In this document: in pieces, positions 12,661 to 32,259 of the stretch
Layout of the letters: each line of letters begins with the position of its first letter
Numbering within the stretch: position 1 is the stretch's first letter
Assembly (NCBI GenBank): GCA_018648265.1
Contig: JABGRN010000052.1
Span: forward strand, 1 to 36,845
Length of the DNA stretch: 36,845 bases
Direction of reading: 5' to 3'
Source of the DNA: Prolixibacteraceae bacterium
GTDB taxonomy: Bacteria > Bacteroidota > Bacteroidia > Bacteroidales > Prolixibacteraceae
Translations under genes and position numbers: made by a program
Notes under the pieces: generated by a model
The model's database searches: none
What the model saw: the letters and a program-made list of their open reading frames with translations, nothing else
Told to the model about the DNA's origin: nothing

Positions 12661-12677
12661 AGATAAAAATTGTAATT

Positions 12678-14279: not shown

Positions 14280-14381
14280 ATACCTTTTAATAATTGAAAC
14301 GAGCAGTGAAATTATCTTAAAATTGATATTATTTATTGTGTCTGGTTTTATCTGCTACGATTACATCAACAATAATTACTT

Positions 14382-17207: not shown

Positions 17208-18307
17208 TGAAAAACACATTAATCTTAACATTACTTATGATTGGCTTTTTTGCCTTTGCCGAAAAACCAAAACCAACCGACAATAAAGCTACTACGGAAA
17301 CTGTAAAACTTTATCAAAACCTGTTGAAGCTTCAAAAAAAAGGATTGATGTTTGGTCATCAGGATGCACTGGCTTATGGTGAAGGATGGGTTTATGAGGA
17401 GGGACGCTCGGATGTAAAAGACGTTTGTGGTGATTACCCGGCAGTTTATGGTTGGGAACTGGGACACCTGGAATTGGGCGATGCCTACAGTTTGGATTCG
17501 GTGCATTTCGATAAAATTCAAAACTGGATAAAGTTAGTGTATGAACGTGGTGGTTTAAATACAATAAGCTGGCATTTACGTAATCCGTTAACGGGCGGTT
17601 CATCCTGGGATACCTCATCAAAAAAAGTGGTGAGTTCAATCCTCCCCGGTGGTGAAAAACATGAACTTTTTAAACAGTATCTCGATAATCTGGCTGATTT
17701 TCTACTTGGATTAAAAACTGACGATGGAACTTATGTTCCAATTCTTTTTCGGCCTTTCCACGAGCATACTGGCAGTTGGTTTTGGTGGGGAAAGAATTTG
17801 TGTTCCGTTGATGATTACAAAAAACTTTGGCAATTTACTGTATCTTATTTACAAGACAAGAAGGAGGTTCACCATTTGTTGTATTCTTATTCAACCGACC
17901 GATTTAATACACAGGAAGAATATTTGGAAAGATATCCGGGCGACGACATTGTAGATGTTATTGCTTTTGATTTATACGACCGGGGACCAGATTATCCGGC
18001 AACCTTAAAAAAATGTGCCGAAACAGTAACAAAACTGGCAAAAGAAAAAGGGAAAATAGCAGCTGTTAGCGAAACCGGTGGACCAATTGCAAAAAACACC
18101 AAATGGTGGACTAAAATTTTATTAGAAACCTTGCGACCTTTTGAGTTGTCTTATGTTTTAGTTTGGCGTAATCCGTGGCAAGCTGCCGGACACGGCGCCT
18201 TTGGACCACACAAAGGGCATCCGAGTTCAGCAGATTTTGTTGAGTTTTATAATAATTCTGAAACTATTTTCCAAAAGGAAATTACAAAGGAGAAACTGTA
18301 TAAATAA
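17207..18307 (+). CDS. Glycoside hydrolase family 26 (beta-mannanase type)
   Basis: A 366-residue clan GH-A enzyme, expected to cut beta-1,4-mannan or a related beta-glycan inside the chain. It has a signal peptide (MKNTLILTLLMIGFFAFA). GH26 features are GLMFGHQDALAYG near residue 47, the acid/base E186 in FRPFHEHTGSWFWWG, the nucleophile E289 in AAVSETGGP, and SWHLRNPLTGG. Length fits a single catalytic domain. Its start codon overlaps the GH2 stop (TAATG), so GH2 and GH26 probably act on the same glycan, endo- then exo-acting. Other GH26 activities (xylanase, mixed-linkage glucanase) cannot be excluded. Confidence 0.94.
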   Translation: MKNTLILTLLMIGFFAFAEKPKPTDNKATTETVKLYQNLLKLQKKGLMFGHQDALAYGEGWVYEEGRSDVKDVCGDYPAVYGWELGHLELGDAYSLDSVHFDKIQNWIKLVYERGGLNTISWHLRNPLTGGSSWDTSSKKVVSSILPGGEKHELFKQYLDNLADFLLGLKTDDGTYVPILFRPFHEHTGSWFWWGKNLCSVDDYKKLWQFTVSYLQDKKEVHHLLYSYSTDRFNTQEEYLERYPGDDIVDVIAFDLYDRGPDYPATLKKCAETVTKLAKEKGKIAAVSETGGPIAKNTKWWTKILLETLRPFELSYVLVWRNPWQAAGHGAFGPHKGHPSSADFVEFYNNSETIFQKEITKEKLYK

Positions 18308-18312
18308 TTTAG

Positions 18313-18588
18313 CCTGATTCGGAATTATCTATAAAGTCTGTATTTAAATTAAATAGTGAAAATCTCAAATGGCAGGTACTGATAATCTTAGGAATTTGTC
18401 TCTTTAAAGCTACCAATTCCAGAATTACCTCCAGCGATATTTTAACCCAATCTTTAAATGTAAAAAAAGCAAATGAGCTTGACCAGATAATTCCAGGAGT
18501 TCCGGTTTGGAGTTTAAACGATAGCCAGGCTTTTCCGGGCTTAAGTTTTATGCCCTTTGCCGGAAATTTGAGTATGATGTTTTTGTAA
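18313..18588 (+). pseudogene. C-terminal remnant of a four-carbon acid sugar kinase (NBD_C type)
   Basis: This occupies most of the 327-base gap between GH26 and the DUF1080 gene. From just after a TAG (18310-18312) to TAA 18586-18588 one frame is open for 91 codons without a plausible start. Its second half reads SRITSSDILTQSLNVKKANE, then LDQIIPGVPVWSL, then FPGLSFMPFAGNLS. That is the C-terminal nucleotide-binding pattern (GGITSSDIATxxLxVK, QIxPGVPVWRL, FPGLPYxxFPGN) of the four-carbon acid sugar kinase family (OtnK and relatives). The glycines before TSSD and the final GD are lost, and the N-terminal four-fifths are missing. It is a decayed gene, informative because the family handles C4 sugar acids. 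Confidence 0.75.
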
Positions 18589-18634
18589 CTTCGCTAATTA
18601 GCTTTAAATTGTAGCCAAATTAAAAAAATATATC

Positions 18635-19336
18635 ATGAAACGGATTCCAATTTACATTGCCATCTTATTTATTGCATTTTCTTGTAATTTTGCCTCTGGC
18701 CCGAAAACAGTTAGCTTAATAAATGGCGTTGATTTAACCGGTTGGCACGTCGATGTTCCGGCAATGGATAATAATCCAGATACGATAAATCCGTTTATTG
18801 TTCGCGATTCAATGCTAGTGAGCCTGGGTACTCCGGGCGGACATTTAATTACCGATTCTGTTTATCAGGATTACCGTTTGGAAGTTGAATACCGATTTGC
18901 TGGGAATCCGGGTAACTGTGGGGTTTTGATTCATGCATCAACACCGCGTGCTTTGTACAAAATGTTTCCAAAATCGTTGGAAGCGCAAATGTATCACGAA
19001 AATGCTGGTGATTTTTGGTGTATTGTTGAAGATATTACGGTTCCGAATATGCTGGAGCGACGTGGTCCTAAAGAGGAATGGGGAATTACTGAAGGTAAAA
19101 AACGCAGGATTTTGAATTTAACTGATGGTTCGGAAAATCCGGTGGGCGAATGGAACAATTATGTTATTGAATGTGTTTCCGATTCAATAAAAATTTGGGT
19201 GAACGGCGACCTTGTAAATTTTGGTTACAATTGTACTACCAACAAGGGTCAGATTGCAGTTCAAGCCGAGGGTTCCGAAGTTGAATTTAGAAAAATTGAT
19301 ATTACCCCAATTACAAAGCTAACTGCAACTGAATAA
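18635..19336 (+). CDS. DUF1080 family lipoprotein (3-keto-disaccharide hydrolase-like)
   Basis: A 233-residue lipoprotein (lipobox AFSC, Cys17) made of one DUF1080 concanavalin-like jelly roll. Typical pieces are SLINGVDLTGWHV, HLITDSVYQDYRLEVEYRF, the NCGVLIHAS core, EAQMYHENAGDFWCI, and EWNNYVIECVSDSIKIWVNG. Members of this family have been linked to hydrolysis of 3-keto-glycosides after oxidation of the sugar; others are only glycan-binding. No 3-ketoglucoside dehydrogenase is visible in this window. It lies between the kinase remnant and the operator/promoter at 19419. Confidence 0.85.
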   Translation: MKRIPIYIAILFIAFSCNFASGPKTVSLINGVDLTGWHVDVPAMDNNPDTINPFIVRDSMLVSLGTPGGHLITDSVYQDYRLEVEYRFAGNPGNCGVLIHASTPRALYKMFPKSLEAQMYHENAGDFWCIVEDITVPNMLERRGPKEEWGITEGKKRRILNLTDGSENPVGEWNNYVIECVSDSIKIWVNGDLVNFGYNCTTNKGQIAVQAEGSEVEFRKIDITPITKLTATE

Positions 19337-19418: not shown

Positions 19419-19450
19419 TTTTGTATATTGTATACAAAAACATATCTTTG
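19419..19450 (+). promoter_or_regulatory. Promoter with an embedded palindromic operator (probable GntR site)
   Basis: TTTTGTATA (19419-19427), spacer TTG, TATACAAAA (19431-19439) is a perfect 9+9 inverted repeat. Inside it TTGTATACAA (19428-19437) is a second perfect palindrome. The left TTTTG is also the -33 box; exactly 19 bases later TATCTTTG (19443-19450) is a perfect -7 box. A bound dimer would block polymerase. The start would be near 19457, 30 bases before the ATG at 19487. FCD-type GntR regulators typically bind sites like TTGTATACAA, and such a gene follows at 20589. Confidence 0.75.
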
Positions 19451-19486
19451 AATTAGTTTTAAATCAATCAATCAAAGATCTAACAA

Positions 19487-20566
19487 ATGAAAACCGGAAT
19501 ATTTCTAATTATTTTGGCCATTCTGGCCAGTTCGTGCATAAGCAAAAAAGAAACAAATTCTTCAACAAGAGTAAGCATCAAAGGTGAAAAGTTTTACATA
19601 AACGGAAAACCAACTTTTGAAGGAAGAACCTGGGAAGGAATCTCAGTTGAAGGACTTCTTCCAAACTCCAGAATGGTTCAGGGCATATTTGACGACCTAA
19701 ATCCGGAAACAGTTGTTCGTTGGGATTACCCTGATGGAAAATGGAGTGCTGACAGAAATACGAATGAATTTGTTGCAGCGATGGACGATTGGCGAGCACA
19801 TGGACTTTTGGCGTTTACAGTAAATATGCAAGGTGGCAGTCCGATGGGCTATGGAAATAAAAACTGGTATAATTCTGCTTATTTCGAAGATGGGAAATTA
19901 CGTGAGGATTACATGCTCCGTTTAGATAAAATTTTGAAAAAAGCTGATGAAATTGGAATGGTTCCAATCCTTGGTTTGTTCTATTTCGGGCAGGATCAGA
20001 ATTTAAAAGATGAAACTGCGGTTGTAACTGCGGTTGACAATTCTATTGCATGGTTACTGGAAAAAGGATATAAAAATGTAATTATTGAATTGGGAAATGA
20101 AAGTAATAATCGGTCTTACGATCATGAAATTCTAAAAAAAGATCGTGTACATGAATTAATTATCCGTGCAAAAGAAAAGGCTCCTGAAATGTTGGTTTCA
20201 ACAAGTTTTAATGGAAATACACTTCCCCCTGAAAAAGTTGTGGAAGTTTCAGATTACGTATTAATTCATGGAAACGGTGTTCACGAGCCTGCAAGAATCA
20301 CTGAAATGGTTGAACAGGTTCGGGCAATGTCTTCATACACTCCAAAGCCAATTGTGTTTAACGAAGATGATCATTTTGATTTCGATAAACCGATAAATAA
20401 TTATGCGAATGCCACAAGAGCATTCGCATCATGGGGATATTTCGATTTCAGAATGGGAGAGGAAGGATACGATGAAGGATACCAAAGCGTTCCGGTAAAT
20501 TGGGGAATTAGTTCCGAAAGGAAAAAGGGATTTTTCAAAAAAACAAAGGAAATTTTTGTGGATTAA
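19487..20566 (+). CDS. TIM-barrel lipoprotein, unassigned clan GH-A-like glycosidase
   Basis: A 359-residue lipoprotein (lipobox LASSC, Cys17). The fold is read as a beta/alpha barrel: a start segment KFYINGKPTFEGRTWEG, HGLLAFTVNMQGG, and a helix with GMVPILGLFYFGQ. The acid/base candidate is E205 in VIIELGNESNN and the nucleophile candidate E293 in PIVFNEDDHFD. The spacing and the N-E / E pattern are those of clan GH-A hydrolases, but I cannot name a family. It is the first gene after the operator promoter, directly before gntR, so its product probably releases the sugar that the following genes catabolise. Confidence 0.75.
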   Translation: MKTGIFLIILAILASSCISKKETNSSTRVSIKGEKFYINGKPTFEGRTWEGISVEGLLPNSRMVQGIFDDLNPETVVRWDYPDGKWSADRNTNEFVAAMDDWRAHGLLAFTVNMQGGSPMGYGNKNWYNSAYFEDGKLREDYMLRLDKILKKADEIGMVPILGLFYFGQDQNLKDETAVVTAVDNSIAWLLEKGYKNVIIELGNESNNRSYDHEILKKDRVHELIIRAKEKAPEMLVSTSFNGNTLPPEKVVEVSDYVLIHGNGVHEPARITEMVEQVRAMSSYTPKPIVFNEDDHFDFDKPINNYANATRAFASWGYFDFRMGEEGYDEGYQSVPVNWGISSERKKGFFKKTKEIFVD

Positions 20567-20585
20567 CAATTTAATCTATTGTTAA
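20563..20585. promoter_or_regulatory. Inverted repeat directly upstream of gntR
   Basis: TTAACAAT (20563-20570), a 7-base spacer, ATTGTTAA (20578-20585): a perfect 8+8 inverted repeat that includes the stop codon of the previous gene and ends 3 bases before the gntR ATG. It could be a second operator (auto-regulation) or an RNA hairpin at the junction. Its sequence differs from the palindrome at 19419. Confidence 0.4.
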
Positions 20586-20588
20586 ATT

Positions 20589-21236
20589 ATGATGGAAATT
20601 CAGCATACTGATTTAAGTGTAGAGGTTTATAAACGGCTGAAGGCAATGATTCTGGCCAAAGAATTTAAGCCGGGAGAGAAATTAAAACAGGAGCAAATTG
20701 CAACAATGTTGGGAGTAAGCAGGATGCCACTTCATAAAGCATTTCAAATGTTGGAAAACGAAATGTTAGTGGAGAATTTTCCTCGCAGGGGATTTTTTGT
20801 GACTGAAATTGACAATACAAAACTCATAGACGCTTTTGAATGTCGCGAAGCACTGGAAGGCGTTGCAGTAAGAAGAGCGACAAAAGTGATTACAAGCGGT
20901 GAAATAAAGTATTTGAAATCACTTTTTCAACCCTTTGGTGGAAAGCATAAAATTGATGTTAAAAAATACATTGAAGCCGATCAGGAGTTTCACAATTCAA
21001 TTTTAAAAATTAGCGGGAATCAGGTGTTACAAAAATTTGAGATTATTAAAAATATTACGGCTCAAACTTATAGGGGGGGGCTAATTCGTGAACCCGCTGA
21101 AACATTACCGGAACATCTTGAAATATTGGATGCAATAGAAAAAGGCGATTCAGTTTTAGCCGAAAAACTGATGAGAAGACACTCCTTAAAAACGCAGGAA
21201 CTATTAAAAGAAAAACTAAAATCAACGGAAGAATAA
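20589..21236 (+). CDS. GntR family regulator, FCD (FadR/VanR) type
   Basis: A 215-residue repressor or activator with an N-terminal winged helix (about 5-75: VYKRLKAMILAKEFKPGEKL, then LGVSRMPLHKAFQMLENE and the wing PRRGFFVTEI). A C-terminal all-helical FCD ligand domain follows. The FCD metal ligands are seen as D131 and H135 (EADQEFHNSI), H176 (LPEHLEIL) and H198 (MRRHSL), so it likely binds a metal and a sugar acid or sugar phosphate. It sits at the head of the transporter/isomerase/kinase block, 9 bases before the MFS gene. Its probable target is the palindrome at 19419-19439. An eight-G run (21073-21080) inside the frame is unusual. Confidence 0.9.
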   Translation: MMEIQHTDLSVEVYKRLKAMILAKEFKPGEKLKQEQIATMLGVSRMPLHKAFQMLENEMLVENFPRRGFFVTEIDNTKLIDAFECREALEGVAVRRATKVITSGEIKYLKSLFQPFGGKHKIDVKKYIEADQEFHNSILKISGNQVLQKFEIIKNITAQTYRGGLIREPAETLPEHLEILDAIEKGDSVLAEKLMRRHSLKTQELLKEKLKSTEE

Positions 21237-21245
21237 CATCATCTT

Positions 21246-22499
21246 ATGAAGAAAACAATCATTCCAATTCGTATTTTACTTGTATTAAGTACCTTTCTTT
21301 TAACCGTTTTGTTATACATCGACAGAGCATGTATTTCAGCAGCTAAAGATGATATTTGCAGTGATCTCGGATTCGATTTAACCGACTTTGGTTGGGTAAT
21401 GGCAGTGTTTACTTTGGGGTACGCTTTGTTTCAGGTTCCTTCAGGAAAGCTTGCCGATAAATTTGGCCCCCGTGGTGTTATAAGTGGTATTGTCCTGATT
21501 TGGTCGATTTTAACCGCGGTTACGGGAATGGCATGGAATTATGTTTCTATGCTGGTAATCCGTTTCTTTTTTGGGGCAGGCGAGGCAGGAGCTTTCCCAA
21601 GTTTGTCGAAAGTAGTTTTTAATTGGTTTCCGGTAAAAGAACGAGGTGTTGTTCAGGGAATTAATTTTTCAGGTTCAAGATTAGGTGCAGCATTTGCATT
21701 GCCACTTGTTGCATGGATGATTACCGTAGTTGGTTGGAGAACGTCATTTTTGATTTTTGGTGGATTTGGAATTCTTTTTGGCATTTTGTGGTACTTGCTT
21801 TTCAAAAATAAACCCGAAGAATCAAAAGCTCTAAGTGAACAGGAAAAAAAATATATTCTTGAAAACAGGCAGGAGCCTTCTGCAAACAAAGGAACAATTG
21901 CATTTTCAAAAATTATAAAATCCAAAAATGTTTGGATGACAATGATACAATATGTTTGTAGCAATTTTACTTTCTATTTCACTTTAACCTGGATGTTTCC
22001 TTTCGTAAAAGAAAAATTTGGATTGTCGCCCGTTGAGGCAGGTTTGTACAGTTCAATTCCATTAATTGCGGGTGCTGTTGGAAACTGGTTTGGAGGTGTT
22101 CTTGTGGATTGGTTGTATCGAATTAAAGGATTAAAAATTTCAAGAAGAATTCCTCCAATTATTGGATTTTCTTTGGCGGCATTTGGTATGATAATGGTTA
22201 CTGCTTCGGGGTCCGGTACCATGGCAATCGTATTTTTGGCAATCGCAGTTTTTGGTGCCGATATGACTTTAAGTCCGTCGTGGGTTTTCTGCATCGATAT
22301 TGGTAAAGAAAATGCAGGAGCCGTTTCCGGAACCATGAACATGGCCGGAAATCTTGGGGCGTTTGTAACTATTATGGCTTACCCCTATTTAATCGAATGG
22401 ACAGGCAGTAATGTGCCGTTTTTCTATATCGCAGCATCACTTTCTGTTGTTGCAATTATTATGTGGACTTTTATGAACCCGAAACAAGTAGTACCTTAA
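21246..22499 (+). CDS. MFS transporter, ACS (hexuronate/sugar-acid) type
   Basis: A 417-residue inner-membrane carrier with about 12 membrane segments. The conserved start is LLYIDRACISAAKDDI, followed by GWVMAVFTLGYALFQVPSG and the MFS loop motif GKLADKFGPRGV, then RFFFGAGEAGAFPS with NWFPVKERG. These are hallmarks of the anion:cation symporter group that includes hexuronate and glucarate carriers, although Bacteroidota members also carry neutral sugars. Nine bases separate it from gntR. It presumably imports the sugar used by the enzymes downstream. Confidence 0.9.
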   Translation: MKKTIIPIRILLVLSTFLLTVLLYIDRACISAAKDDICSDLGFDLTDFGWVMAVFTLGYALFQVPSGKLADKFGPRGVISGIVLIWSILTAVTGMAWNYVSMLVIRFFFGAGEAGAFPSLSKVVFNWFPVKERGVVQGINFSGSRLGAAFALPLVAWMITVVGWRTSFLIFGGFGILFGILWYLLFKNKPEESKALSEQEKKYILENRQEPSANKGTIAFSKIIKSKNVWMTMIQYVCSNFTFYFTLTWMFPFVKEKFGLSPVEAGLYSSIPLIAGAVGNWFGGVLVDWLYRIKGLKISRRIPPIIGFSLAAFGMIMVTASGSGTMAIVFLAIAVFGADMTLSPSWVFCIDIGKENAGAVSGTMNMAGNLGAFVTIMAYPYLIEWTGSNVPFFYIAASLSVVAIIMWTFMNPKQVVP

Positions 22500-22550
22500 A
22501 AATAAAAACCTGGACTTCCGATTTAGGGCTTCCGACAATTTTTTAAAAAT

Positions 22551-23414
22551 ATGAAATTAGCATTAAATACATTGGTTTACGAAGTTGGAAATAAAGGACC
22601 CGAAGAATCATTGCGTTCTGCTGAGAAATATGGTTTTAGGTACATTGAATACGCAGGTATTCGCAAAGGAAATCCTTTAACAATGACTGCCGAACAGCGA
22701 AAAGAAGCAGTGAGAATTGTGAAACACAACGACATCCACAGCACTCAAATGTTAATGGTTGCCACAAAAGATACTGCACATCCAAACGCTAAAAAACGAG
22801 ACGCTGTTTTTGATTATATGAAAGCCTGCACCGATTATCAGTTGGAAATGGGTGGTCGGCAGTTGCTGGTTTGCTGGGGTGGTGGATTATATGAATTGGG
22901 AACTTCGCCGGAACAATCGTGGTTGTACATGGTAGAAAATGTAGGCCGTTTTGCAGAATGGTGTCTCGATAAAGATTTATTGGTTGGTATAGAACTCGAC
23001 CCGCATGTTTATTTTATTTGTAATAACACATATAAATTGGCAAAAGCAATTGAAGATATTGGTTTACCGAATGTATATCCGAATGTAGATGTTGGGCATT
23101 TGGTAATTACGCGTGAAGAACCAGAACAGTTGGAAAAATTAAAAAGCCGCATGATTCACGTTCATTTAAGCGAAACCGAAAGTTTTGCTCATACAAATAG
23201 TATATTAGGAACTGGTGCAGTCCCGTTCCGTAAATATGTAGATAAATGTTTGGAATTGGGGATTGAAGAAAATTGTGCAAAACTAGGAGAACCATGTGTG
23301 GCCGGTATTGAAATGGGTAGTGAAGCCAGCGGTGGATTTGTTGAAAATCCGGATTATTGGGTTGAAGAAAGCCTGAAATTTCTGGAAAAGGAATTGCCAA
23401 ATGTTACGAGATAG
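22551..23414 (+). CDS. Sugar (phosphate) isomerase/epimerase, xylose-isomerase-like TIM barrel
   Basis: A 287-residue AP_endonuc_2-type TIM barrel that would interconvert ketose and aldose forms, or epimerise a ketose, using a divalent metal. Metal-ligand candidates in barrel order are E148 (VGIELDPHV), D180 and H183 (YPNVDVGHL), H203/H205 (MIHVHLSE) and E254 (AGIEMGSEA). Length is normal. It follows the MFS gene and precedes the RpiB-like gene. A similar protein in erythritol/threitol catabolism isomerises L-erythrulose-1-phosphate; the exact substrate here is unknown. Confidence 0.87.
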   Translation: MKLALNTLVYEVGNKGPEESLRSAEKYGFRYIEYAGIRKGNPLTMTAEQRKEAVRIVKHNDIHSTQMLMVATKDTAHPNAKKRDAVFDYMKACTDYQLEMGGRQLLVCWGGGLYELGTSPEQSWLYMVENVGRFAEWCLDKDLLVGIELDPHVYFICNNTYKLAKAIEDIGLPNVYPNVDVGHLVITREEPEQLEKLKSRMIHVHLSETESFAHTNSILGTGAVPFRKYVDKCLELGIEENCAKLGEPCVAGIEMGSEASGGFVENPDYWVEESLKFLEKELPNVTR

Positions 23415-23475
23415 TTTTTTAGAAGGTTCAAGTCTTGGATCTTGAATCTTGTGTCTTGAATCAAAAAGAATTAAA

Positions 23476-23937
23476 ATGAAAATATGTATCGACTGCGATG
23501 ATGCGGCAGTAAATCTAAAAAAAGTGCTTTACAATCATATAAAAAGTAAAGGAATTGATATTACTGATCTTAATTATTCCGAAGGAAAAGAAAATTCTAT
23601 GTATCCGGAAATTGGATTTAATCTGGCAAAAGAAGTGGTTGCCGGAAACTACGACCGTGGAATTAGTATTTGCGGAACGGGTTTGGGAATGGCGATGATT
23701 GCCAATAAAGTTGAAGGTATTTTTGCAGGTACTTGTCACGATGTTTTTTCTGCCGAAAGACTTCGTAAAAGCAACGATGCCCAGATTATAACAATGGGTG
23801 AAAGAGTAATTGGACCTGAGTTGGCAAAAACAATAATCGATGCCTGGCTGGTTTCTGAATTTGCTGGTGGCGGCTCAACTCCAAAAGTAGCTCAAATGAG
23901 AAAACTTGAAAAAGAGTCATTTGCTTCAAATAAATAA
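23476..23937 (+). CDS. RpiB/LacA-B family sugar-phosphate isomerase lacking the pentose-type histidines
   Basis: A 153-residue aldose-ketose phosphate isomerase. I take the ATG at 23476 (MKICIDCDDAA); the upstream TTG lies in a simple repeat (CTTGAATCTTGTG). The catalytic cysteine is C66 in GISICGTGLG, the same number as in E. coli RpiB. E. coli His10 is replaced by Asp (CDD) and His99 by Ser (RKSNDAQI, where RpiB has RQHND). The phosphate arginine in GERVIG is kept. His99 opens the furanose ring of ribose-5-phosphate; its loss suggests an open-chain substrate such as a tetrulose or tetrose phosphate. It should produce an aldose phosphate for central metabolism. Confidence 0.88.
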   Translation: MKICIDCDDAAVNLKKVLYNHIKSKGIDITDLNYSEGKENSMYPEIGFNLAKEVVAGNYDRGISICGTGLGMAMIANKVEGIFAGTCHDVFSAERLRKSNDAQIITMGERVIGPELAKTIIDAWLVSEFAGGGSTPKVAQMRKLEKESFASNK

Positions 23938-23971
23938 TCAATAAAAAATAATCGATTTAAAAATAAAGTCC

Positions 23972-24979
23972 ATGCAAAAATTTGTAAACGACCCGTCGAA
24001 AGTGGTTGACGAAATGTTGGAAGCTTATGTAAAGGTGCATTCAGACTTGGTTAGTCCTACTGAAAACGAACGCGTTATAAAATATAAAGAAGCACCAATT
24101 AAAGGTAAAGTTGGAATTGTAACGGGTGGTGGCTCGGGACACAAACCTGCATTTATCGGTTATGTTGGCCGAAATATGGTCGATGCAGTTGCTTGCGGCG
24201 AGATATTTTCTTCACCACCAGCACAAATGTTTTACGATGCAATAAAAGAAGCAGACGGTGGAGAAGGAGTTGCTTTGCTTTATGGGAATTATGCTGGCGA
24301 TAATATGAATGTTGCCATGGCAATTGATGAAGCTGAAGATAATGATATTGAAGTGAAAAAGGTAGTTGCAAACGATGATGTTCCTTCCGCTCCAAAGGGT
24401 CAGGAGGAAAAACGCAGGGGAGTTGCGGGTGAAATATTAATGTGGAAAGTGGGTGGTGCAAAAGCTGCAATGGGAGCTTCGCTTGATGATGTAATTACTG
24501 CCGCGCAAAAAGCCATCGACAATACCCGAAGTATGGGAATTGGTCTGGCACCCTGTTCAATTCCAGAGGTTGGGCATCCAAATTTCACAATTGAAGATGG
24601 TAAAATGGAAGTAGGAATCGGGCACCACGGAGAACCTGGGATTGAAGTTTGTGATTTGGAACCTTCGGCAAAAATCGCCCAAAGGTTTTGCGATGTAATT
24701 ATTCCTGATCTTCCTTTTAAAAAGGGAGATGAAGTTGTTGTTTTAATTTCAGGATTAGGTTCAACCCCCATCATGGAACAATACATTGTTTTTAACGATG
24801 TGGAAAAAATCCTCACTGAAAAAGAAATTAAAATTTACATTTCTTACGTAGGAAATTATTTTACATCGCTAGAAATGGCTGGAGTAACCTGTACATTAAT
24901 GAAGCTGGATAAAGAATTAAAAGAATGTATCGAATATGAGTGTGATTCAGTTGGGATAAGACAATTCCAGAGAAAATAA
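23972..24979 (+). CDS. Dihydroxyacetone kinase-like subunit K (ketose-binding DhaK domain)
   Basis: A 335-residue stand-alone DhaK subunit that would hold a short ketose as a hemiaminal on histidine while the L subunit donates phosphate. Seen: GGGSGHKP (H57; the glutamate usual after the His is Lys here), GNYAGDNMN (D110), and the covalent histidine H219 in GIGHHGEPGIE. A final KLDKELKECI segment ends the fold. The changed positions around H57 and the doubled HH differ from dihydroxyacetone-specific enzymes. The kinase could act on dihydroxyacetone, erythrulose, apulose or similar. The partner DhaL is 2 kb further on, after a glycosidase gene. Confidence 0.88.
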   Translation: MQKFVNDPSKVVDEMLEAYVKVHSDLVSPTENERVIKYKEAPIKGKVGIVTGGGSGHKPAFIGYVGRNMVDAVACGEIFSSPPAQMFYDAIKEADGGEGVALLYGNYAGDNMNVAMAIDEAEDNDIEVKKVVANDDVPSAPKGQEEKRRGVAGEILMWKVGGAKAAMGASLDDVITAAQKAIDNTRSMGIGLAPCSIPEVGHPNFTIEDGKMEVGIGHHGEPGIEVCDLEPSAKIAQRFCDVIIPDLPFKKGDEVVVLISGLGSTPIMEQYIVFNDVEKILTEKEIKIYISYVGNYFTSLEMAGVTCTLMKLDKELKECIEYECDSVGIRQFQRK

Positions 24980-25038
24980 AATACAACTTATAACTTTATA
25001 AAGGGATTAAAAAATCAAAGTAATTTCAATTTATCATC

Positions 25039-26922
25039 ATGAAAAAATCAAAGCTTAAATTTCTAAATTCACTTTCTCAATTGTTATTATTCGTGTTTCT
25101 GTTGTTTTTTTTATACTCGTGCAGCAATAGACCAAAATATAATATTCAAGGTGAACTTAAAAAATGGCATAAAATAGAATTGGTTTTTGACGGTCCTTAT
25201 AGTAGTGAGTTAGATAGTATTAACCCTTTTCTAAATTACAGGCTGGATGTTTCATTTACCAATAACGGACAAACCTTTGTTGTGCCTGGATTTTATGCTG
25301 CCGATGGAAATGCAGCCGAAACTAGCGAGGTGTCAGGGAATAAATGGATGGTAAGGTTTACACCAAACCAAATTGGAGAATGGAAATTTAATGTCTCATT
25401 TAAACAGGGAAATAAAATTGCTGTGGCTAAAGATATTACCAGCGCAGAAAGCGCGGTTTATTTCGATGGTTTAAAAGGTAGTCTCACTATAGTTGAATCT
25501 GATAAAACAGGGATTGACAACAGGGCAAACGGTAGATTGAATTATGTTGGAGAGCCCTATCTTAAATATGAGGAATCGGAGAAATACTTTATCAAAGTAG
25601 GCGTTGATGCACCGGAAAATTTATTGGCTTTTAGCGATTTTGACGCTCCCTCAAATGTTTTTGATTTGCTAAAAAAATGGGGCCCTCATCAAAAAGATTT
25701 TAATAAAGATGCCAGAGAATTTTTATGGAAGGGAGAAAAAGGGAAAAATTTGTTTGGGGCAATCAATTACCTCGCTTCCGAAGAACTGAATGTTTTTTCG
25801 TTCCTAACATTTAATGTTGATGGCGATGATAGAAATGTTTTTCCTTATTTGTTAAAAGTTTCAGACGCTGAATATGTTGAATACGCCAATGTTAAAAAGA
25901 ACCGGGAAGCATGGCAAACAATGTTTTACAAAACCCGTTTTGATGTTTCGAAATTAGAACAATGGGAACGTATTTTTGAGTATGCGGAGACAAAAGGAAT
26001 GTTCCTGCACTTTAAAACCCATGAAACTGAAACTGACCATTTAATGGATAACGGTGAGTTCGGGGTCGAGGGTAAATTATATTATCGTGAACTCATTGCC
26101 CGCTTTGGTCATCATCTGGCATTGAACTGGAATTTAGGTGAAGAAAATAATCAACCCATTGATGTAGTAAAAAAAGTTGCCAATTATGTTGCAGAACTTG
26201 ATCCTTACAAGCACCATTTAGTAATTCATACTTTTCCTAACAAAGATGATCGTTATGCTGAACTAATTGGAGAACAATCACCGTTAACCGGAGCATCATT
26301 ACAATTGAGCGATGCTGAATTTTGGGATGTACACCCAAGGGTATTAAAGTGGAGAAAGAAATCGGAAGCAAGTGGTAAATCCTGGGCACTGGCTGTTGAT
26401 GAACCTGGCAAAGCAAATATAGCCTTGCTTCCCGATGATGAAGATTTGGAACATAATTTTGCACGGTCAGGTGCTCTTTGGGGAACATTAATGGCGGGTG
26501 GATTTGGGGTAGAATGGTATTTTGGATATAATAGCCCAAATTCAGATTTGACATGTCAGGATTTTAGGAGTCGCGATTTATTTTGGGATCAAAACAGACA
26601 CGCAAAAACCTTTTTTGAAAATTACATTCCCTTTTGGAAAATGAAACCCACAGATGAACTGACAACTGATACAATTTCTTATTGTTTTTCTGAACCTGGT
26701 GAAATATACGTCGTTTATCTTCATCAGGGTATGGAAACAACTTCCCTGTTAATGGGAAACTCATTGAAAAAATATTCGGTTAAATGGTACGATCCAAGAA
26801 ATGGAGGAGGTTTAATGGATGGTACTGTAAAAAGTGTGATTGCAAATGGAACAATGGCCCTGGGAAATTCGCCAGATGAGAAAACAAACGATTGGGTTAT
26901 TTTGATTCAACATGAAAAATGA
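25039..26922 (+). CDS. DUF5060-domain TIM-barrel glycosidase lipoprotein, copy 1
   Basis: A 627-residue lipoprotein (lipobox LYSC). The N-terminal DUF5060 beta-sandwich (about 33-130) has KKWHKIELVFDGP, PGFYAADGNAAET and IGEWKFNVSF. The barrel follows, with KTHETETDHLMDNG, an acid/base candidate in LNWNLGEENNQP, and a nucleophile candidate in ALAVDEPGK. The C-terminal beta domain (KWYDPRNGGGLMDGTV) is of the collagen-binding type seen in apiosidase-like (DUF4038) proteins. The substrate is unknown. It is inserted between the dhaK-like and dhaL-like genes and is paralogous to the protein at 28769. Confidence 0.85.
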   Translation: MKKSKLKFLNSLSQLLLFVFLLFFLYSCSNRPKYNIQGELKKWHKIELVFDGPYSSELDSINPFLNYRLDVSFTNNGQTFVVPGFYAADGNAAETSEVSGNKWMVRFTPNQIGEWKFNVSFKQGNKIAVAKDITSAESAVYFDGLKGSLTIVESDKTGIDNRANGRLNYVGEPYLKYEESEKYFIKVGVDAPENLLAFSDFDAPSNVFDLLKKWGPHQKDFNKDAREFLWKGEKGKNLFGAINYLASEELNVFSFLTFNVDGDDRNVFPYLLKVSDAEYVEYANVKKNREAWQTMFYKTRFDVSKLEQWERIFEYAETKGMFLHFKTHETETDHLMDNGEFGVEGKLYYRELIARFGHHLALNWNLGEENNQPIDVVKKVANYVAELDPYKHHLVIHTFPNKDDRYAELIGEQSPLTGASLQLSDAEFWDVHPRVLKWRKKSEASGKSWALAVDEPGKANIALLPDDEDLEHNFARSGALWGTLMAGGFGVEWYFGYNSPNSDLTCQDFRSRDLFWDQNRHAKTFFENYIPFWKMKPTDELTTDTISYCFSEPGEIYVVYLHQGMETTSLLMGNSLKKYSVKWYDPRNGGGLMDGTVKSVIANGTMALGNSPDEKTNDWVILIQHEK

Positions 26923-26995
26923 ACTGTAAAACTCAAGTTAAAGGTAATTTGAAATAATACGTTTTTAAACTATTATTGAAAATATCCATTGGAAT

Positions 26996-27640
26996 ATGAA
27001 GAAGTTTACAAATATTGAAGGAGCGATTATCATCGACAAAATGATTCTGATCATTCAGGAGAACAAACAGTACTTAAGTGATATCGACGGATTAATTGGC
27101 GATGGCGACCACGGAATAAATATGAATAAAGGATTTACAATGTGTCGCGAAGAATTGGATAAGAATCCCGGCGATTTAGCGCATTCTGCAAAAGCTCTTG
27201 CAAAAATATTAATTATGAAAATTGGTGGTTCCATGGGGCCACTTTACGGGAAATTGTACCGTGGTTTCGCAAAGGAACTAGCGGGTAACGAAGAAATTGG
27301 ATTAATTGAAATGGGGGCAGCCTTAGAAGGAATGCTTGCTTCTATACAATCTATTTCCACCGCAAAACCGGGGGATAAAACTTTAATGGACACTTTGGTT
27401 CCGGCAGTTGAAGCATTTAAAAGGGCCATTTCTGAAGGACAAAATTTTGTCGGTGCGCTGGAAGAAATGAAATCGGCAGCAAAATCCGGTCGCGATTCAA
27501 CTAAAAACATGGTTGCGCAACTTGGACGCGCTAGTCGTTTAGGCGAACGCGCTCGTGGAGTACTAGATCCCGGTGCAACATCTTGTTGTCTTTTACTGGA
27601 AACATTGGCTGATACAGCAATAGAATTATTAAGAAAATAA
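26996..27640 (+). CDS. Dihydroxyacetone kinase-like subunit L (ATP-binding DhaL)
   Basis: A 214-residue all-helical phosphoryl-donor subunit. The metal-chelating aspartates lie in DIDGLIGDGDHGINMN (D31, D36, D38), and the nucleotide lid region is KIGGSMGPLYG. A further conserved GDKTLMDTLVPAVEAF and a DPGATS segment close the fold. The set of motifs is complete, so the subunit should be active. No PTS-type DhaM is present, so ATP is the likely donor. Its partner is the DhaK-like protein at 23972. Separation by a glycosidase gene is unusual, since the two are normally adjacent or fused. Confidence 0.9.
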   Translation: MKKFTNIEGAIIIDKMILIIQENKQYLSDIDGLIGDGDHGINMNKGFTMCREELDKNPGDLAHSAKALAKILIMKIGGSMGPLYGKLYRGFAKELAGNEEIGLIEMGAALEGMLASIQSISTAKPGDKTLMDTLVPAVEAFKRAISEGQNFVGALEEMKSAAKSGRDSTKNMVAQLGRASRLGERARGVLDPGATSCCLLLETLADTAIELLRK

Positions 27641-27723
27641 ATCAAAAATTTTGCTAAGACACAAAAAAAATGATTATTAAAACTTGGCGTCTCAGTGACT
27701 TTGCAAGAAATAAAATAAAAAAA

Positions 27724-28692
27724 ATGTCAGATTTAAAACAAGGTGTAATTATCGGTTTCCTAGGAAAAACTCAGGATCGTTTTTCAGAATATCAACGTCC
27801 GGTAACTACAGAAGAAAAGTTGGAATTCGTTTCAAAAATCGATGGCTTTACTGGCGTTGAAATGGTTTTTCCTTACGAAAATGGAACACCGGAAGAAACT
27901 AAAATGTGGATGGCAAAATATGGTTTGGAGTTTGCCGCGATTAATGTAAACATCAAAAAAGAAACAGAATGGGTTCCAGGTGCACTTTCCCGCCCCGATA
28001 AAGGAATTCGCGACCGTGCAGTTGCAATGATTAAGAAAGCAAAAGATTTCGCCAAAGCCGTCGGTGCACCACATGTTACATGTTGTCCCCTGAGCGATGG
28101 TTATGATGTGCTTTTTCAGATAAATTACAAAACCGCCTGGAATTACATGGTAGAAACTATTGCAGAGGCTGCAGATTATCTTCCTGAAGTACCAATATTT
28201 ATCGAGCCAAAATATTCTGAAACACGCGTACATTGCCAGATTGATTCTACTGCAAAAGGATTGTTATTGCTAAAAGACATTCAATGCAAAAATACCGGGA
28301 TTACAATCGATATGGGGCATTCTTTGCAAAGTCAGGAAAATCCGGCACAGGCACTTTCACTAATTTACGAAAGTGGTTACGATGCCTATATTCATACAAA
28401 CGATAACGACACAAAAGCCGACTGGGATTTAGTTGGAGCAAGCCGCCATTTTCTTCATTATATTGAAATGATGTTTTGGGCACAGGAATACGGTTACGAT
28501 AAATATTTTACTACCGATGCTTCACCTCGTATTTTCGATGTATTAGATTTTTTTAATCGACATTCAGAAATTACACAAGGAGCCTACAAATTGGCCAAAA
28601 CCTTAAATCGCGGGCAAATTATGGAAATGATGCGCACTGAAGATTATAATGGTTTGATGAAGATGGTAAACAAAAAAATATATCGAATTTGA
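27724..28692 (+). CDS. Second sugar isomerase/epimerase, TIM barrel
   Basis: A 322-residue xylose-isomerase-like TIM-barrel protein, distinct from the one at 22551. I begin at the ATG at 27724 (MSDLKQGVIIGFLGK); the longer in-frame start at 27670 runs through low-complexity A-rich DNA typical of intergenic spacers. Metal-ligand candidates are E161 (FIEPKYSE), D196 and H199 (TIDMGHSL), H224 (YIHTNDND) and D265 (TTDASP). That arrangement resembles metal-dependent ketose isomerases of the rhamnose isomerase/tagatose-epimerase superfamily. Its place just after the DhaL gene suggests it converts the imported aldose to the ketose that DhaK/DhaL phosphorylates. Confidence 0.85.
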   Translation: MSDLKQGVIIGFLGKTQDRFSEYQRPVTTEEKLEFVSKIDGFTGVEMVFPYENGTPEETKMWMAKYGLEFAAINVNIKKETEWVPGALSRPDKGIRDRAVAMIKKAKDFAKAVGAPHVTCCPLSDGYDVLFQINYKTAWNYMVETIAEAADYLPEVPIFIEPKYSETRVHCQIDSTAKGLLLLKDIQCKNTGITIDMGHSLQSQENPAQALSLIYESGYDAYIHTNDNDTKADWDLVGASRHFLHYIEMMFWAQEYGYDKYFTTDASPRIFDVLDFFNRHSEITQGAYKLAKTLNRGQIMEMMRTEDYNGLMKMVNKKIYRI

Positions 28693-28768
28693 CAAAATCC
28701 TATTTTTAGAATACAAAATTATCGAAATTGAATTTTGAAATATTGATACATTAAATCTTTAACGAATC

Positions 28769-30595
28769 ATGAAACACTTAATCTACCTGTTTATTGCAGC
28801 ACTATTATTTTCGTGCCAAACCGAAATCAAACAAGAAGTAAAAGTTGAAGGGGAACTTCAGAAATGGCATAAAGTAACCCTTGTTTTAAATGGTCCTGAA
28901 ACTTCGGAGTGGGCAAAAGAAAACCCGTTTTTGGATTATAAACTTGAGGCTACTTTTACAAAAGGAAATAAATCTTTTACCGTTCCCGGTTATTTTGCCG
29001 CCGATGGAAATGCTGGCGAAACTTCAGCCGATGAAGGAAATGTTTGGAAAGTGCATTTCAGACCCGATGAAGTTGGAACATGGAACTACAAAATTTCATT
29101 TAAAAAAGGAAAAAATATTGTTGTAATCGATGAAAAAGATTTAGGAGATTCGCTTGAACTGGATGGCAGTGAAGGATCGATTGAAGTGACAGAATCTGAT
29201 AAAACAGGTGATGACTTTCGTGCAAATGGAAGAATTATTAATGGGAATAAAGGTTATTTTAAGTTCCAGGGAACTGATAATATTTGGATAAAAAATGGTG
29301 CCGATAGTCCCGAAAATTTCCTTGCTTATCATGAATTTGATCAGACCACACGTTTCACTTTGAAAAAAGTAATTCGCGAAGGAGAAGCTAATCCAGATGA
29401 TGGTTTGCATAAATATGAACCTCACATTGCCGATTGGCAAGAAGGAAATCCGACCTGGCAAAACGGCAAAGGAAAAGGTATAATTGGAGCCATAAATTAT
29501 TTGAAGTCAGTAGGTGTAAATTCTGTTTACATGCTTACAATGAATATTATTGGAGATGGGAAGGATGTTTGGCCATACAACGATTATAACGAACGTTACC
29601 GTTTCGATTGCAGCAAATTAGATCAGTGGGAAGTTGTATTTGATTACATGGAGCAAAACGGGGTGATGAATCATTTTGTATTACAGGAAACTGAAAATGA
29701 ATGTTTGCTTGATCAGGGTCATACCGGTGTTCAGAGGAAAGTTTATTTACGTGAATTGGTGGCTCGTTTTGGGCATCATTTGGCAGTTACTTATAATTTG
29801 GGTGAAGAAAATGGTCCTGCAAATTGGACTCCAATTGGCCAAACCGACCAACAACGAAAAGACATGGCAACATATTTAAAAGAAGTAAATCCATATCCTT
29901 GCTTTGTAGTCCTTCATACACATTCTGGCGATGATGGGCAGGATAAAACATTAAACCCACTGCTGGGTTTTGAAAACCTCGATGGCCCTTCGTTGCAAAT
30001 AGGGCGGGCAGATAATGTCCACAAAAGGGTTAAAAAATGGATAGCCGAATCAAAGTCCGCCGGCAAACAATGGGTAGTGAATTTTGATGAATTGGGACCG
30101 GCAAATAAGGGAGTCATGCCAGATTCCTTCGATGCCCTTCACGATACAATAAGGCATCACGCACTGTGGGGAACGCTAATGGCAGGCGGTGCAGGTGTTG
30201 AATGGTATTTTGGTTATCGTTTCCCGCACAACGACTTGGGTTTGGAAGATTTCAGAAGTCGCGATAATTGGTTTAAACAATCAACAATCGCTACACAATT
30301 TGTAAATCAGTTTCCGTTGGAAGAAATGTCAAGCGTGGACGAGTTGATAAATGTAAAGGATGCGTATTGTCTTACAAATCAAAAGGACATTTACATTGTA
30401 TATCTTCCGGCCGGAACAAAAAATGCAAAACTCAAAATTAATTCAAAAAAAGCACTTTCAGTAAAGTGGCTTAATCCTCGTGATGGTGGAGAATTAAAAG
30501 TTGGAAGTGTTTCATCAATAGAAGGAACTGGAATTAGAAGTTTAGGAAATCCGCCTATAGATTCAGAAAAAGATTGGGTGGTATTAGTTAAGTAA
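28769..30595 (+). CDS. DUF5060-domain TIM-barrel glycosidase lipoprotein, copy 2
   Basis: A 608-residue lipoprotein (lipobox LFSC, Cys16), paralogous to 25039-26922 over its full length. DUF5060 spans about 27-125 (QKWHKVTLVLNGP, PGYFAADGNAGET, VGTWNYKISF). The barrel includes NHFVLQETENECLLDQG, the acid/base candidate E346 or E347 in TYNLGEENGP, and the nucleophile candidate E441 in VVNFDELGPAN. The last domain has VKWLNPRDGGELKVGSV. Both copies keep the same two candidate catalytic glutamate regions, so both are probably active. It is the last gene of the catabolic block. Reported functions of DUF5060 proteins are too few for me to name a substrate. Confidence 0.85.
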   Translation: MKHLIYLFIAALLFSCQTEIKQEVKVEGELQKWHKVTLVLNGPETSEWAKENPFLDYKLEATFTKGNKSFTVPGYFAADGNAGETSADEGNVWKVHFRPDEVGTWNYKISFKKGKNIVVIDEKDLGDSLELDGSEGSIEVTESDKTGDDFRANGRIINGNKGYFKFQGTDNIWIKNGADSPENFLAYHEFDQTTRFTLKKVIREGEANPDDGLHKYEPHIADWQEGNPTWQNGKGKGIIGAINYLKSVGVNSVYMLTMNIIGDGKDVWPYNDYNERYRFDCSKLDQWEVVFDYMEQNGVMNHFVLQETENECLLDQGHTGVQRKVYLRELVARFGHHLAVTYNLGEENGPANWTPIGQTDQQRKDMATYLKEVNPYPCFVVLHTHSGDDGQDKTLNPLLGFENLDGPSLQIGRADNVHKRVKKWIAESKSAGKQWVVNFDELGPANKGVMPDSFDALHDTIRHHALWGTLMAGGAGVEWYFGYRFPHNDLGLEDFRSRDNWFKQSTIATQFVNQFPLEEMSSVDELINVKDAYCLTNQKDIYIVYLPAGTKNAKLKINSKKALSVKWLNPRDGGELKVGSVSSIEGTGIRSLGNPPIDSEKDWVVLVK

Positions 30596-30945: not shown

Positions 30946-32259
30946 ATGTCAGTAAAAAAACGAATCCTAAATATTCTTTTCTGGTCGGTGGTTTCAGCAG
31001 CTTTTATAGGACCCGGAACAATTACAACAGCGGCAAAATCTGGTGCCGCATTTGGAACTGAACTACTTTGGGCACTGGTGTTTTCAACATTTGCCTGCCT
31101 ATTATTACAGGAAGCGGCAGCACGATTAACAATCATTTCAGGCAAAAACCTAGGACAGGCAATTGTACAGCAATTTGAAAAAAGTAAATCGAAACTATTG
31201 GTTTTAGTTCTGGTTTTAGGTGCAATTGTATTAGGAGCAGCTGCCTACGAAATGGGAAATTTGCTTGGCGCAGTTGCCGGATTTCGCCTCATTTTTAATG
31301 TTCCTCCATATATTTTAGTTTTAATTATTGGAGCTGTTTCAGCAATAATATTGAATATTCCCTCGCTAAAAATTATCGCAACAATTATGGGACTAGTGGT
31401 TGTTTTAATGGGACTTGGATTTTTAATTACCGCTTTTTTGGTGCAACCTTCTTTTTCCGAAATTGCAAAAGGAGCTTTTATTCCCCGAATTCCATCATCA
31501 GCAAATGCAGGAATTCTGGTTCTCGGATTAATAGGAACTACTATTGTTCCTTACAACCTTTTTCTCGGTTCCGGCATTTCAAACAAAAACCAATCGGTAA
31601 AAGAAATGCGTTTTGGTTTGGTCGTGGCAATTTTATTGGGCGGTTTGTTTTCCATGGCAGTTTTAATTGTCGGGACAACGGTGGTAACAGAATTTTCGTT
31701 CGATGAACTTGCTTTGGCACTGCAAGAAAAGATTGGTCCTTCAGGAAAATATTTATTAGGATTTGGTTTGTTTGCCGCCGGTTTTACTTCTGCTGTTACC
31801 GCTCCCCTTGCAGCAGCAATTACCATTAAAAGTTTGTTTGGAAATAAAAATCCCGAAAAATGGAAACCTGATTCTATCAATTACAAATTAGGATGGATTT
31901 TCGTTCTGATAACCGGAGTTGGTTTCGCAATTGGAAATGTAAAACCAATTCCAGCAATTATTTTGGCACAGGCGCTAAACGGATTTCTACTTCCTTTTAT
32001 TAGTATTTTTTTGTTTTTAGTTATTAATAACCGTGAGATTACAAAAAATAATACGAATCCATTTATGTTGAATATTGCAATGATTTTTGTGATTTTCGTG
32101 ACACTTGTTCTAGGACTAAATAGTGCGAGCAAAGCGTTTTTCTCTACTTTCTTTCAAGGAGTTGCACCCGAAAACACATTAATTGGGATTACTTTAATAG
32201 CACTTTTTTTATCGATTTTTGTTTGGGTGAAAGCAAAAAAACCTTCAAAAAATATTTAA
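30946..32259 (+). CDS. NRAMP-fold transporter without the usual metal ligands (YcsG-like)
   Basis: A 437-residue inner-membrane protein with about 11 membrane helices and clear NRAMP-family similarity (LLWALVFSTFACLLLQ, then GKNLGQAI). In metal-transporting NRAMPs the first helix carries DPGN and the sixth MPHN; here they read GPGT (residues 22-25) and VPYN (201-204). The Asp, Asn and Met that bind the metal are therefore replaced by Gly, Thr and Val. Its TAA is followed at once by the ATG of the 5-oxoprolinase (zero gap). NRAMP-like YcsG of Bacillus lies in the operon of the PxpABC-type oxoprolinase. I infer an organic substrate, possibly 5-oxoproline, rather than Mn or Fe. Confidence 0.9.
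   Translation: MSVKKRILNILFWSVVSAAFIGPGTITTAAKSGAAFGTELLWALVFSTFACLLLQEAAARLTIISGKNLGQAIVQQFEKSKSKLLVLVLVLGAIVLGAAAYEMGNLLGAVAGFRLIFNVPPYILVLIIGAVSAIILNIPSLKIIATIMGLVVVLMGLGFLITAFLVQPSFSEIAKGAFIPRIPSSANAGILVLGLIGTTIVPYNLFLGSGISNKNQSVKEMRFGLVVAILLGGLFSMAVLIVGTTVVTEFSFDELALALQEKIGPSGKYLLGFGLFAAGFTSAVTAPLAAAITIKSLFGNKNPEKWKPDSINYKLGWIFVLITGVGFAIGNVKPIPAIILAQALNGFLLPFISIFLFLVINNREITKNNTNPFMLNIAMIFVIFVTLVLGLNSASKAFFSTFFQGVAPENTLIGITLIALFLSIFVWVKAKKPSKNI

Follow-up and report, generated by a model that had tools for sequence, protein, structure and literature searches.

Known tetritol systems include EltD, LerK, LerI and DerI, the EryA-I enzymes of Brucella and Rhizobium, and EYK1 with an RpiB-like isomerase in Yarrowia. 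D-Apiose is catabolised through an isomerase (ApsI), a kinase (ApsK) and a split transketolase (AptA/B), with branches through apionate (ApnO). In other organisms the catabolism of erythritol employs an erythrulose kinase and RpiB-type isomerases (PMC5992420, PMC10733421), and further background on D-apiose and tetritol use is given in PMC13001218, PMC10733421 and PMC5992420; the name oiaX comes from a plasmid annotation. Here we describe an operon of a marine-sediment bacterium of the Prolixibacteraceae, carried on a 36,845-nucleotide stretch of DNA (contig JABGRN010000052.1, hereafter the window), which on balance probably serves, under the control of GntR, to break down a rare short-chain sugar via a tetrulose (erythrulose).

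The first-pass annotation, made by a model from the letters alone, had seen about twelve same-strand genes here. The block is real and lies on one strand, but it holds ten genes, in 19487-30595, according to the open reading frame list and Pfam, which agree with that annotation on a GntR regulator, a major facilitator superfamily (MFS) transporter, two TIM proteins, an RpiB-like protein, DhaK, DhaL and two DUF5060 proteins:

19428..19437, no strand assigned: candidate GntR operator, palindrome TTGTATACAA, about 50 bp before LipX
19487..20566, + strand: LipX, secreted lipoprotein, candidate glycosidase (GH-A-like (beta/alpha)8 fold model, Foldseek)
20589..21236, + strand: GntR/FCD transcriptional regulator (PF00392, PF07729)
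21246..22499, + strand: MFS transporter (PF07690, MFS_1)
22551..23414, + strand: TIM1, AP_endonuc_2 isomerase/epimerase, candidate ketose 3-epimerase (PF01261)
23476..23937, + strand: RpiB-like protein, candidate D-erythrulose-4-phosphate isomerase (PF02502, LacAB_rpiB; residue survey)
23972..24979, + strand: DhaK, ketose-binding subunit, candidate erythrulose kinase (PF02733, Dak1; motifs, tree)
25039..26922, + strand: DUF5060a, secreted GH-A-like glycosidase candidate (PF16586; barrel; PF12904, Collagen_bind_2)
26996..27640, + strand: DhaL, nucleotide-binding phosphoryl-transfer subunit (PF02734, Dak2; TIGR02365)
27670..28692, + strand: TIM2, AP_endonuc_2 aldose-ketose isomerase candidate (PF01261; 3ktc match)
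28769..30595, + strand: DUF5060b, secreted GH-A-like glycosidase candidate (PF16586; PF12904, Collagen_bind_2)

The order is thus LipX, GntR-FCD, MFS, TIM1, RpiB, DhaK, DUF5060a, DhaL, TIM2 and DUF5060b. The intergenic gaps across the block measure 9-76 bases between listed reading frames; the nearest upstream gene, a 3-keto-disaccharide hydrolase at 18635-19336, lies 150 bases off the block and the nearest downstream gene, an Nramp gene at 30946, 350 bases off it. The most likely start codon of RpiB is the ATG at 23476, not the TTG at 23449. No SusC/SusD pair is encoded among the 18 window genes scanned (10547-36586); one was found in a relative (L001/L045).

Comparison with known systems

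By its sequence the operon resembles tetritol catabolism in that an erythrulose kinase of the dihydroxyacetone kinase family and an RpiB-type isomerase would lead to erythrose-4-phosphate. The operon RpiB has Ser99 and Ser134 in common with its counterparts in erythritol-type loci, and the operon DhaK, which belongs to the dihydroxyacetone kinase family, shares a clade with the DhaK of a putative tetritol cassette from Klebsiella. Unlike the tetritol loci, however, the operon has no polyol dehydrogenase, no erythritol kinase, no LerI/EryH protein similar to triose-phosphate isomerase (TPI) and no EryC epimerase; it has two AP_endonuc_2 proteins, GntR and secreted glycosidases instead. D-Apiose catabolism includes a TIM isomerase to which TIM2 may be distantly related, and a Ser99-type RpiB is likewise encoded in the oiaX cluster, but FGGY kinase, OiaX, OiaK and the two transketolase halves are all missing from the operon. 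With DhaKLM it shares the fold and the subunit split, whereas its DhaK has different motifs (not GIHGEPG and GD-x-[ML]-NF) and DhaM is missing. LipX resembles the GH140 apiosidases and GH5 enzymes of glycoside hydrolase (GH) clan GH-A in its predicted fold and in the positions of two putative catalytic Glu residues, and DUF5060a resembles them in its predicted fold; both sequences are too distant for family placement. Judged from sequence, then, the ending appears to be of the known erythritol/threitol type, and it is the entry, with two AP_endonuc_2 proteins and secreted glycosidases and no dehydrogenase, that appears to differ.

No described locus with this combination was known to the first-pass annotation, and we found none in the open-licence literature, subscription journals being outside the scope: among the titles listed there none describes such an operon, joins apiose with dihydroxyacetone kinase or concerns apulose. 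DUF5060 is met there in one paper, on Lactobacillus jensenii.

The RpiB active site

The residue changes of the operon RpiB are the best evidence for what is probably a four-carbon substrate. The window's genome encodes two RpiBs, the operon copy, with Asp9, Cys66, Ser99, Ser134 and Lys137, and a second copy with ordinary residues. Among 20 operon RpiBs, E. coli position 10 is Asp in 19 and Glu in one, position 133 is Gly in 17, Arg in two and Ser in one, and positions 66, 99, 134 and 137 are Cys, Ser, Ser and Lys in all 20. The set His10, His99, His134 and Arg137 occurs in none of them (0/20), while the catalytic Cys66 and membership of the LacAB_rpiB family are kept. Since the RpiB tree was poorly supported, with 3 of 12 inner branches starred, we relied on this residue survey.

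As a control we took 60 PF02502 matches from 60 genomes of the order and read 56, namely the 30 best-scoring and 26 others; the remaining four consisted of three fragments and the operon copy of the window, which the count of 20 already includes. Another operon copy (G014) turned up among the 56 and belongs to the 20 as well, leaving 55 ordinary RpiBs. At the six positions 52 of these have H, C, H, R, H and R, and two that are cut at a contig end have C, H, R, H and R; His99, His134 and Arg137 are kept in 54 of the 55, including the second copy of the window's genome. The sole deviant, L156 (G058:C198), has Asp99 and Phe134, yet His10, Arg133 and Arg137, and is perhaps a third RpiB type; this one protein leaves the probability of a tetrulose pathway unchanged.

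According to PMC4783025, the Leishmania RpiB mutant of the His99 equivalent is inactive, this His99 equivalent being the proposed proton donor to the ring oxygen, and phosphate is bound by the counterparts of His10, Arg133 and Arg137. The RpiB of Coccidioides immitis (PDB 3qd5, 3sdw), a fungal protein, has the same active-site set as the operon RpiB, Asp, Cys, Ser, Ser and Lys; PMC3212906 gives Asp17, Ser109, Ser145 and Lys148, the last three binding phosphate, and records that its authors saw the loss of the ring-opening histidine and suspected shorter-chain substrates. Ser99, Ser134 and Lys137 are also common to the Klebsiella plasmid, Sphaerotilus and Clostridia rows of our alignment, and the RpiBs from erythritol-type loci (Rhizobium, Labrenzia) and from the oiaX cluster have S10, S99, S134 and N137. 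On simple chemical reasoning, neither erythrose-4-phosphate nor erythrulose-4-phosphate has a hydroxyl available for closing a furanose ring, so the ring-opening residue would be dispensable. Ser99, Ser134 and Lys/Asn137 with a kept Cys66 may form a rule that splits tetrulose-phosphate isomerases from ribose-5-phosphate isomerases annotated alike, and would suggest a substrate for the solved, unassigned fungal RpiB. The PDB entries 3qd5/3sdw and 5ifz are named ribose-5-phosphate isomerases and have, like the operon RpiB, Ser at the ring-opening position; by that residue they may be tetrulose-phosphate isomerases.

The kinase

The DhaK of the window carries the motifs GSGHKP, GDNMNV and GHHGEPG where the aligned dihydroxyacetone kinases have GSGHEP, GD-x-[M/L]-NF and GIHGEPG or GIHSEPG. 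In a tree of 29 DhaK rows, the GHHGEPG form makes a clade of 14 with support 100/100, apart from the DhaM-linked enzymes of Deinococcus and Citrobacter, and the lysine form GHKP is confined to seven rows, the window's own subclade. A Ser99-type RpiB is found in 9 of the 14 loci of the clade; at the loci of the other 15 rows there is no RpiB match, two having been viewed to 1.5 kb only and one being cut by the record end. The NCBIfam score of DhaK is 351.7 bits, below the cut-off of 406.25, whereas that of DhaL (TIGR02365) is 174.7 bits, above the cut-off of 138.3.

No DhaM is present among the ten operon genes (Pfam), and enzyme I of the phosphotransferase system (PTS; PF05524) has no match in the window's genome, an assembly of 164 contigs rated 100% complete. 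As no enzyme I was found, DhaKL very likely depends on a nucleotide, presumably ATP.

Another member of the clade lies on the Klebsiella plasmid NZ_CP018670.1 (L015:1637-10839), where an alcohol dehydrogenase, an MFS transporter, DhaKL, a Ser99-type RpiB, tal and tkt stand together under generic annotations. The dehydrogenase matches no curated model over the cut-off. By its gene content, the cassette is probably a tetritol pathway.

Conservation of the core

Besides the window we read 26 loci: a scan of named genomes for DhaK supplied 14, and the other 12 are regions from relatives. Merging them per genome (L001/L045, L002/L042 and L013/L052; L001 is the Draconibacterium sediminis record) gives 24 genomes including the window. 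The set TIM1-RpiB-DhaK-DhaL-TIM2 is complete on one strand in 11 of the 24, all Bacteroidota apart from one Verrucomicrobiota: the window, L041, L042, L043, L044, L045, L049, L050, L051, L003 and the verrucomicrobial L007. Two of the complete sets (window, L041) contain a DUF5060 gene, and four (L003, L044, L049, L050) encode a secreted protein of 305 aa within the set. In the window a DUF5060 gene parts DhaK from DhaL, but the two are adjacent in all other loci showing both.

Five more genomes have a partial core on short contigs (L006, L008, L047, L048, L013/L052), and in six RpiB-DhaK-DhaL occurs amid other neighbours (L004, L005, L009, L010, L011, L012), with a 47% identical TIM2 in L010 and L011. 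The Bacillus locus L014 has just DhaL and a 50% identical DhaK. Among 295 genomes of the order, 4 have TIM2 and 6 have DhaK; every one of the 4 with TIM2 carries a close DhaK, the remaining two DhaKs being 46-47% identical, and the co-occurrence is significant with the window's genome left out (Fisher p = 2.4e-6). Within the family, 10 of the 140 genomes searched carry TIM1. Phylum-wide TIM1 and DhaK searches of 395 genomes returned the window's genome only, that sample being too distant to help. The operon is rare yet conserved as a unit; a lack of joint conservation, which the first-pass annotation had named as refuting, is not what the core shows.

Two of these loci deserve mention for their neighbours. 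In L010 (716-7985) RpiB-DhaK-DhaL and the 47% TIM2 stand with a Gfo/Idh oxidoreductase, a 3-keto-disaccharide hydrolase and ThuA, which may connect the tetrulose core with 3-keto sugar cleavage, and the clostridial PTS locus L012 (2461-14256) combines enzyme I, an EIIC-like protein, a Ser99-type RpiB, DhaK, DhaL and a class II aldolase.

A shared palindrome before GntR or LipX

The palindrome TTGTATACAA occurs once in the window against 0.1 expected, and its core, TGTATACA, stands 12-132 bp before GntR or LipX in all nine loci that have a close GntR (the window, L008, L041-L045, L049 and L050), distances being counted from gene starts estimated by similarity and the loci L042 and L043 being near copies. 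Upstream of the operon in L003, L007, L046 and L051 it is absent. These positions suggest that GntR controls both the secreted enzymes and the core. The same core also precedes SusC (L045:1661), the MFS gene of L050 and, in L042 (17082) and L043, a 491-aa gene heading Sde182-like and MR_MLE genes; the copies before SusC and the Sde182-like/MR_MLE set point to what may be a wider GntR regulon.

The secreted enzymes

Of the three glycosidase-like lipoproteins named in the first-pass annotation, two carry DUF5060 and Collagen_bind_2; the third, LipX, matched nothing in Pfam, NCBIfam or the PDB sequences at the thresholds applied. Its structure model, a confident one (predicted local distance difference test, pLDDT, 84.4), is of the (beta/alpha)8 type, and among PDB entries Foldseek ranks GH5 enzymes and a GH140 apiosidase highest (E about 1e-9). 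Glu205 and Glu293, invariant across 10 rows, are candidates for the acid/base and the nucleophile, respectively. The model of DUF5060a has a mean pLDDT of 68.2, so its matches hold at fold level only: the GH5 mannanase ManDH5 is best, followed by 4n0r, 4qfu and GH140. In Pfam neither LipX nor the DUF5060 proteins match DUF4038 (GH140), GH140 being among the best Foldseek matches alongside GH5. The models suggest a GH-A type fold for both LipX and DUF5060a, a fold that does not tell the sugar specificity.

LipX lies inside the locus in the window, L008, L041, L044, L045, L047, L048 and L049, with a 29% identical relative in L046. Across the order it turned up in 8 of the 295 genomes, among them all 4 with the core, three of which have it on a separate contig. 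The first-pass annotation had made the DUF5060 glycosidases part of the pathway core, which the neighbourhood comparison it proposed does not bear out: although TIM1 to TIM2 hold together, DUF5060 proteins stand beside 6 of the 11 complete sets only (window, L041, L042, L043, L045, L049) and not beside L003, L007, L044, L050 and L051 within the stretches read, and their position varies, in the DhaK/DhaL gap in the window and in the RpiB/DhaK gap in L041. The DUF5060 genes are not core, and LipX is the better-linked secreted enzyme. As this uncharacterised secreted glycosidase-like family is tied to a defined intracellular pathway, the substrates accepted by the kinase and the isomerases could show which sugar it would release.

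Nucleoside-hydrolase-like secreted proteins recur by the core or LipX, with PF07632 in L042 and PF07632 and PF01156 in L115, and might hint at a furanoside. The secreted protein of about 305 aa found in relatives (L003:9036-9983, L044:8108-9124, L048:156-1076, L049:10960-11880, L050:8551-9465) is placed between RpiB and DhaK, or in L048 after RpiB, and is not in the window. The L003 copy has no Pfam match; the SSDGNEHDHDDWA motif of the protein looks nucleoside-hydrolase-like by eye, and the match to a PF07632 protein is weak (E 0.012 over 57 residues). The genome's third DUF5060 protein (L131:7767-10960, G000:C143) lies in a different setting, followed by a protein that by eye looks like GH140/DUF4038, and TGTATACA does not occur in the 19 kb that were read there.

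The TIM proteins

TIM1 matches D-tagatose 3-epimerase weakly (E 3e-5), and Glu148, Asp180, His205 and Glu254 are among its invariant residues in 16 rows, a Glu, Asp, His, Glu pattern which we take to resemble that of the D-tagatose 3-epimerase group. EryC was rejected as a model for TIM1, neither TIM1 nor TIM2 showing significant similarity to two EryC-type proteins. Plasmid searches with TIM1 gave 13 records at 22-26% identity; the two contexts viewed had Gfo/Idh and ABC genes and no functional anchor. TIM2 has 3ktc as its best solved relative (E 4e-26) and shares 26% identity with the TIM protein encoded in a Rhizobium cluster beside an ABC transporter, a split transketolase and an FGGY kinase, a layout that is presumably the one used for D-apiose. 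The two proteins have Glu179, Lys181, Asp214, His217, Asn244, Asp245 and Asp283 in common (12 aligned rows). The order and specificity given to TIM1 and TIM2 below are guessed from their family.

Proposed pathway and alternatives

Our model builds on the conserved operon, the residue changes, the separate DhaK clade, the lack of an enzyme I match and the common palindrome, all read from sequence. LipX and, locally, the DUF5060 proteins would act as secreted GH-A-type glycosidases that release from an extracellular glycan a sugar, the identity of which we guess from their family, and the MFS protein would import it. TIM2 would then convert the aldose to a ketose and TIM1 would epimerise the ketose at C3, after which a nucleotide-dependent DhaKL would phosphorylate a tetrulose (erythrulose) and the altered RpiB would turn D-erythrulose-4-phosphate into D-erythrose-4-phosphate, which would enter the pentose-phosphate pathway. 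Since the RpiB site is altered, DhaK falls in a separate clade and no enzyme I was found, the core most likely yields erythrulose-4-phosphate and then erythrose-4-phosphate. We infer the four-carbon substrate of RpiB and DhaKL and the control by GntR from these features. The first-pass annotation had likened the kinase and the isomerases to those of erythritol/threitol catabolism, which feed erythrose-4-phosphate, and both the sequences and the conserved neighbourhood favour a tetrulose-type core of this kind; dihydroxyacetone or ribose-5-phosphate as substrate fits poorly with the altered RpiB residues and the distinct DhaK clade.

More tentatively, the whole may be a redox-neutral, dehydrogenase-free furanose route, in which the undescribed LipX family releases a tetrose or apiose from its glycoside, two AP_endonuc_2 enzymes lead to erythrulose, and a dedicated pair of DhaKL and RpiB, the latter without a ring-opening residue, to erythrose-4-phosphate. 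We regard this fuller version as possible but doubtful. If true, LipX would be a new glycosidase family and the natural source of the tetrose a new glycan component.

Several observations weigh against the erythrulose pathway. To our knowledge no tetrose is common in glycans, and both the MFS subfamily and the GntP of L009 hint at an acid. The operon RpiB scores 157 bits against the DerI model of NCBIfam (cut-off 240) and 163 bits against the general RpiB model (cut-off 135). According to PMC4783025, E. coli H99N has a 26-fold lower kcat with unchanged Km, so loss of His99 alone need not abolish activity on ribose-5-phosphate, and an RpiB mutant of the His10 equivalent is still active. Five alphaproteobacterial loci of the GHHGEPG clade have no RpiB within 7-8 kb. 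In L013 the MFS gene is followed by RpiB without TIM1 between, TIM1 being on a separate contig, and L046 (G688:C21:1-17000) has GntR-MFS-TIM1-TIM2 with a divergent transaldolase-like gene and a beta-keto acid cleavage enzyme (BKACE) and no RpiB or DhaKL; the TIM pair is thus compatible with a different ending. Four genomes have LipX without the core, amid other hydrolase-like genes, and several loci have extra copies of TGTATACA elsewhere, some without a gene start behind.

A pentose pathway, in which TIM2 and TIM1 would yield a pentulose for phosphorylation by DhaKL and RpiB would work as an ordinary ribose-5-phosphate isomerase, would suit the NCBIfam ranking, the residual activity of E. coli H99N, the GH43 and GH10 genes that flank some relatives, and the tal and tkt of the Klebsiella plasmid, which are compatible with a pentulose too. 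We nevertheless consider it unlikely, since the ring-opening and most phosphate-binding residues are altered in all 20 operon RpiBs and the genome already has an RpiB with ordinary residues. That DhaKL belongs to a plain dihydroxyacetone kinase operon, beside glycosidases by chance, is very improbable: DhaL does exceed its NCBIfam cut-off, but DhaK falls below its own, its clade and motifs are distinct, the operon has no DhaM and the genome no enzyme I that we found, and the gene order is conserved.

A new D-apiose route would make LipX or a DUF5060 protein the apiosidase and TIM2 an apiose isomerase yielding apulose, with the carbon reaching DhaKL either as apulose or, once a carbon has been lost, as erythrulose. 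Such a route could draw on the Rhizobium relative of TIM2, the GH140 apiosidases that stand among the top structural matches to LipX and DUF5060a, and the recurrent nucleoside-hydrolase-like proteins, but the 26% identity of TIM2 is weak, GH5 matches both secreted proteins equally well or better, TIM1 would be left without a clear role, and transketolase halves, an FGGY kinase and apionate enzymes are all absent from the ten genes; we think it quite unlikely. Just as unlikely, in our view, is the import of a sugar acid, with the TIM proteins acting on a keto acid that ends as a short ketose. The MFS protein best matches TIGR00893, the D-galactonate transporter subfamily, at 263.8 bits, though this is below the cut-off of 395 and weak evidence of ligand; GntR is of the FCD type, RpiB-DhaKL of L009 sits with the GntP permease and tartronate-semialdehyde reductase, distant TIM2 relatives adjoin TRAP transporters, and L046 has its BKACE. 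No dehydrogenase or decarboxylase is found in the ten genes, however, and secreted GH-like enzymes suggest glycosides.

Neighbouring genes in the window

Upstream of the operon (10547-19336) lie a sulfatase, GH2 and GH26 genes, the 3-keto-disaccharide hydrolase and a lipoprotein that is weakly GH88/GH127-like, below the cut-off. Downstream (30946-36024), the Nramp-family transporter is followed directly, with no gap between them, by a fused hydantoinase A/B (oxoprolinase-like) protein.

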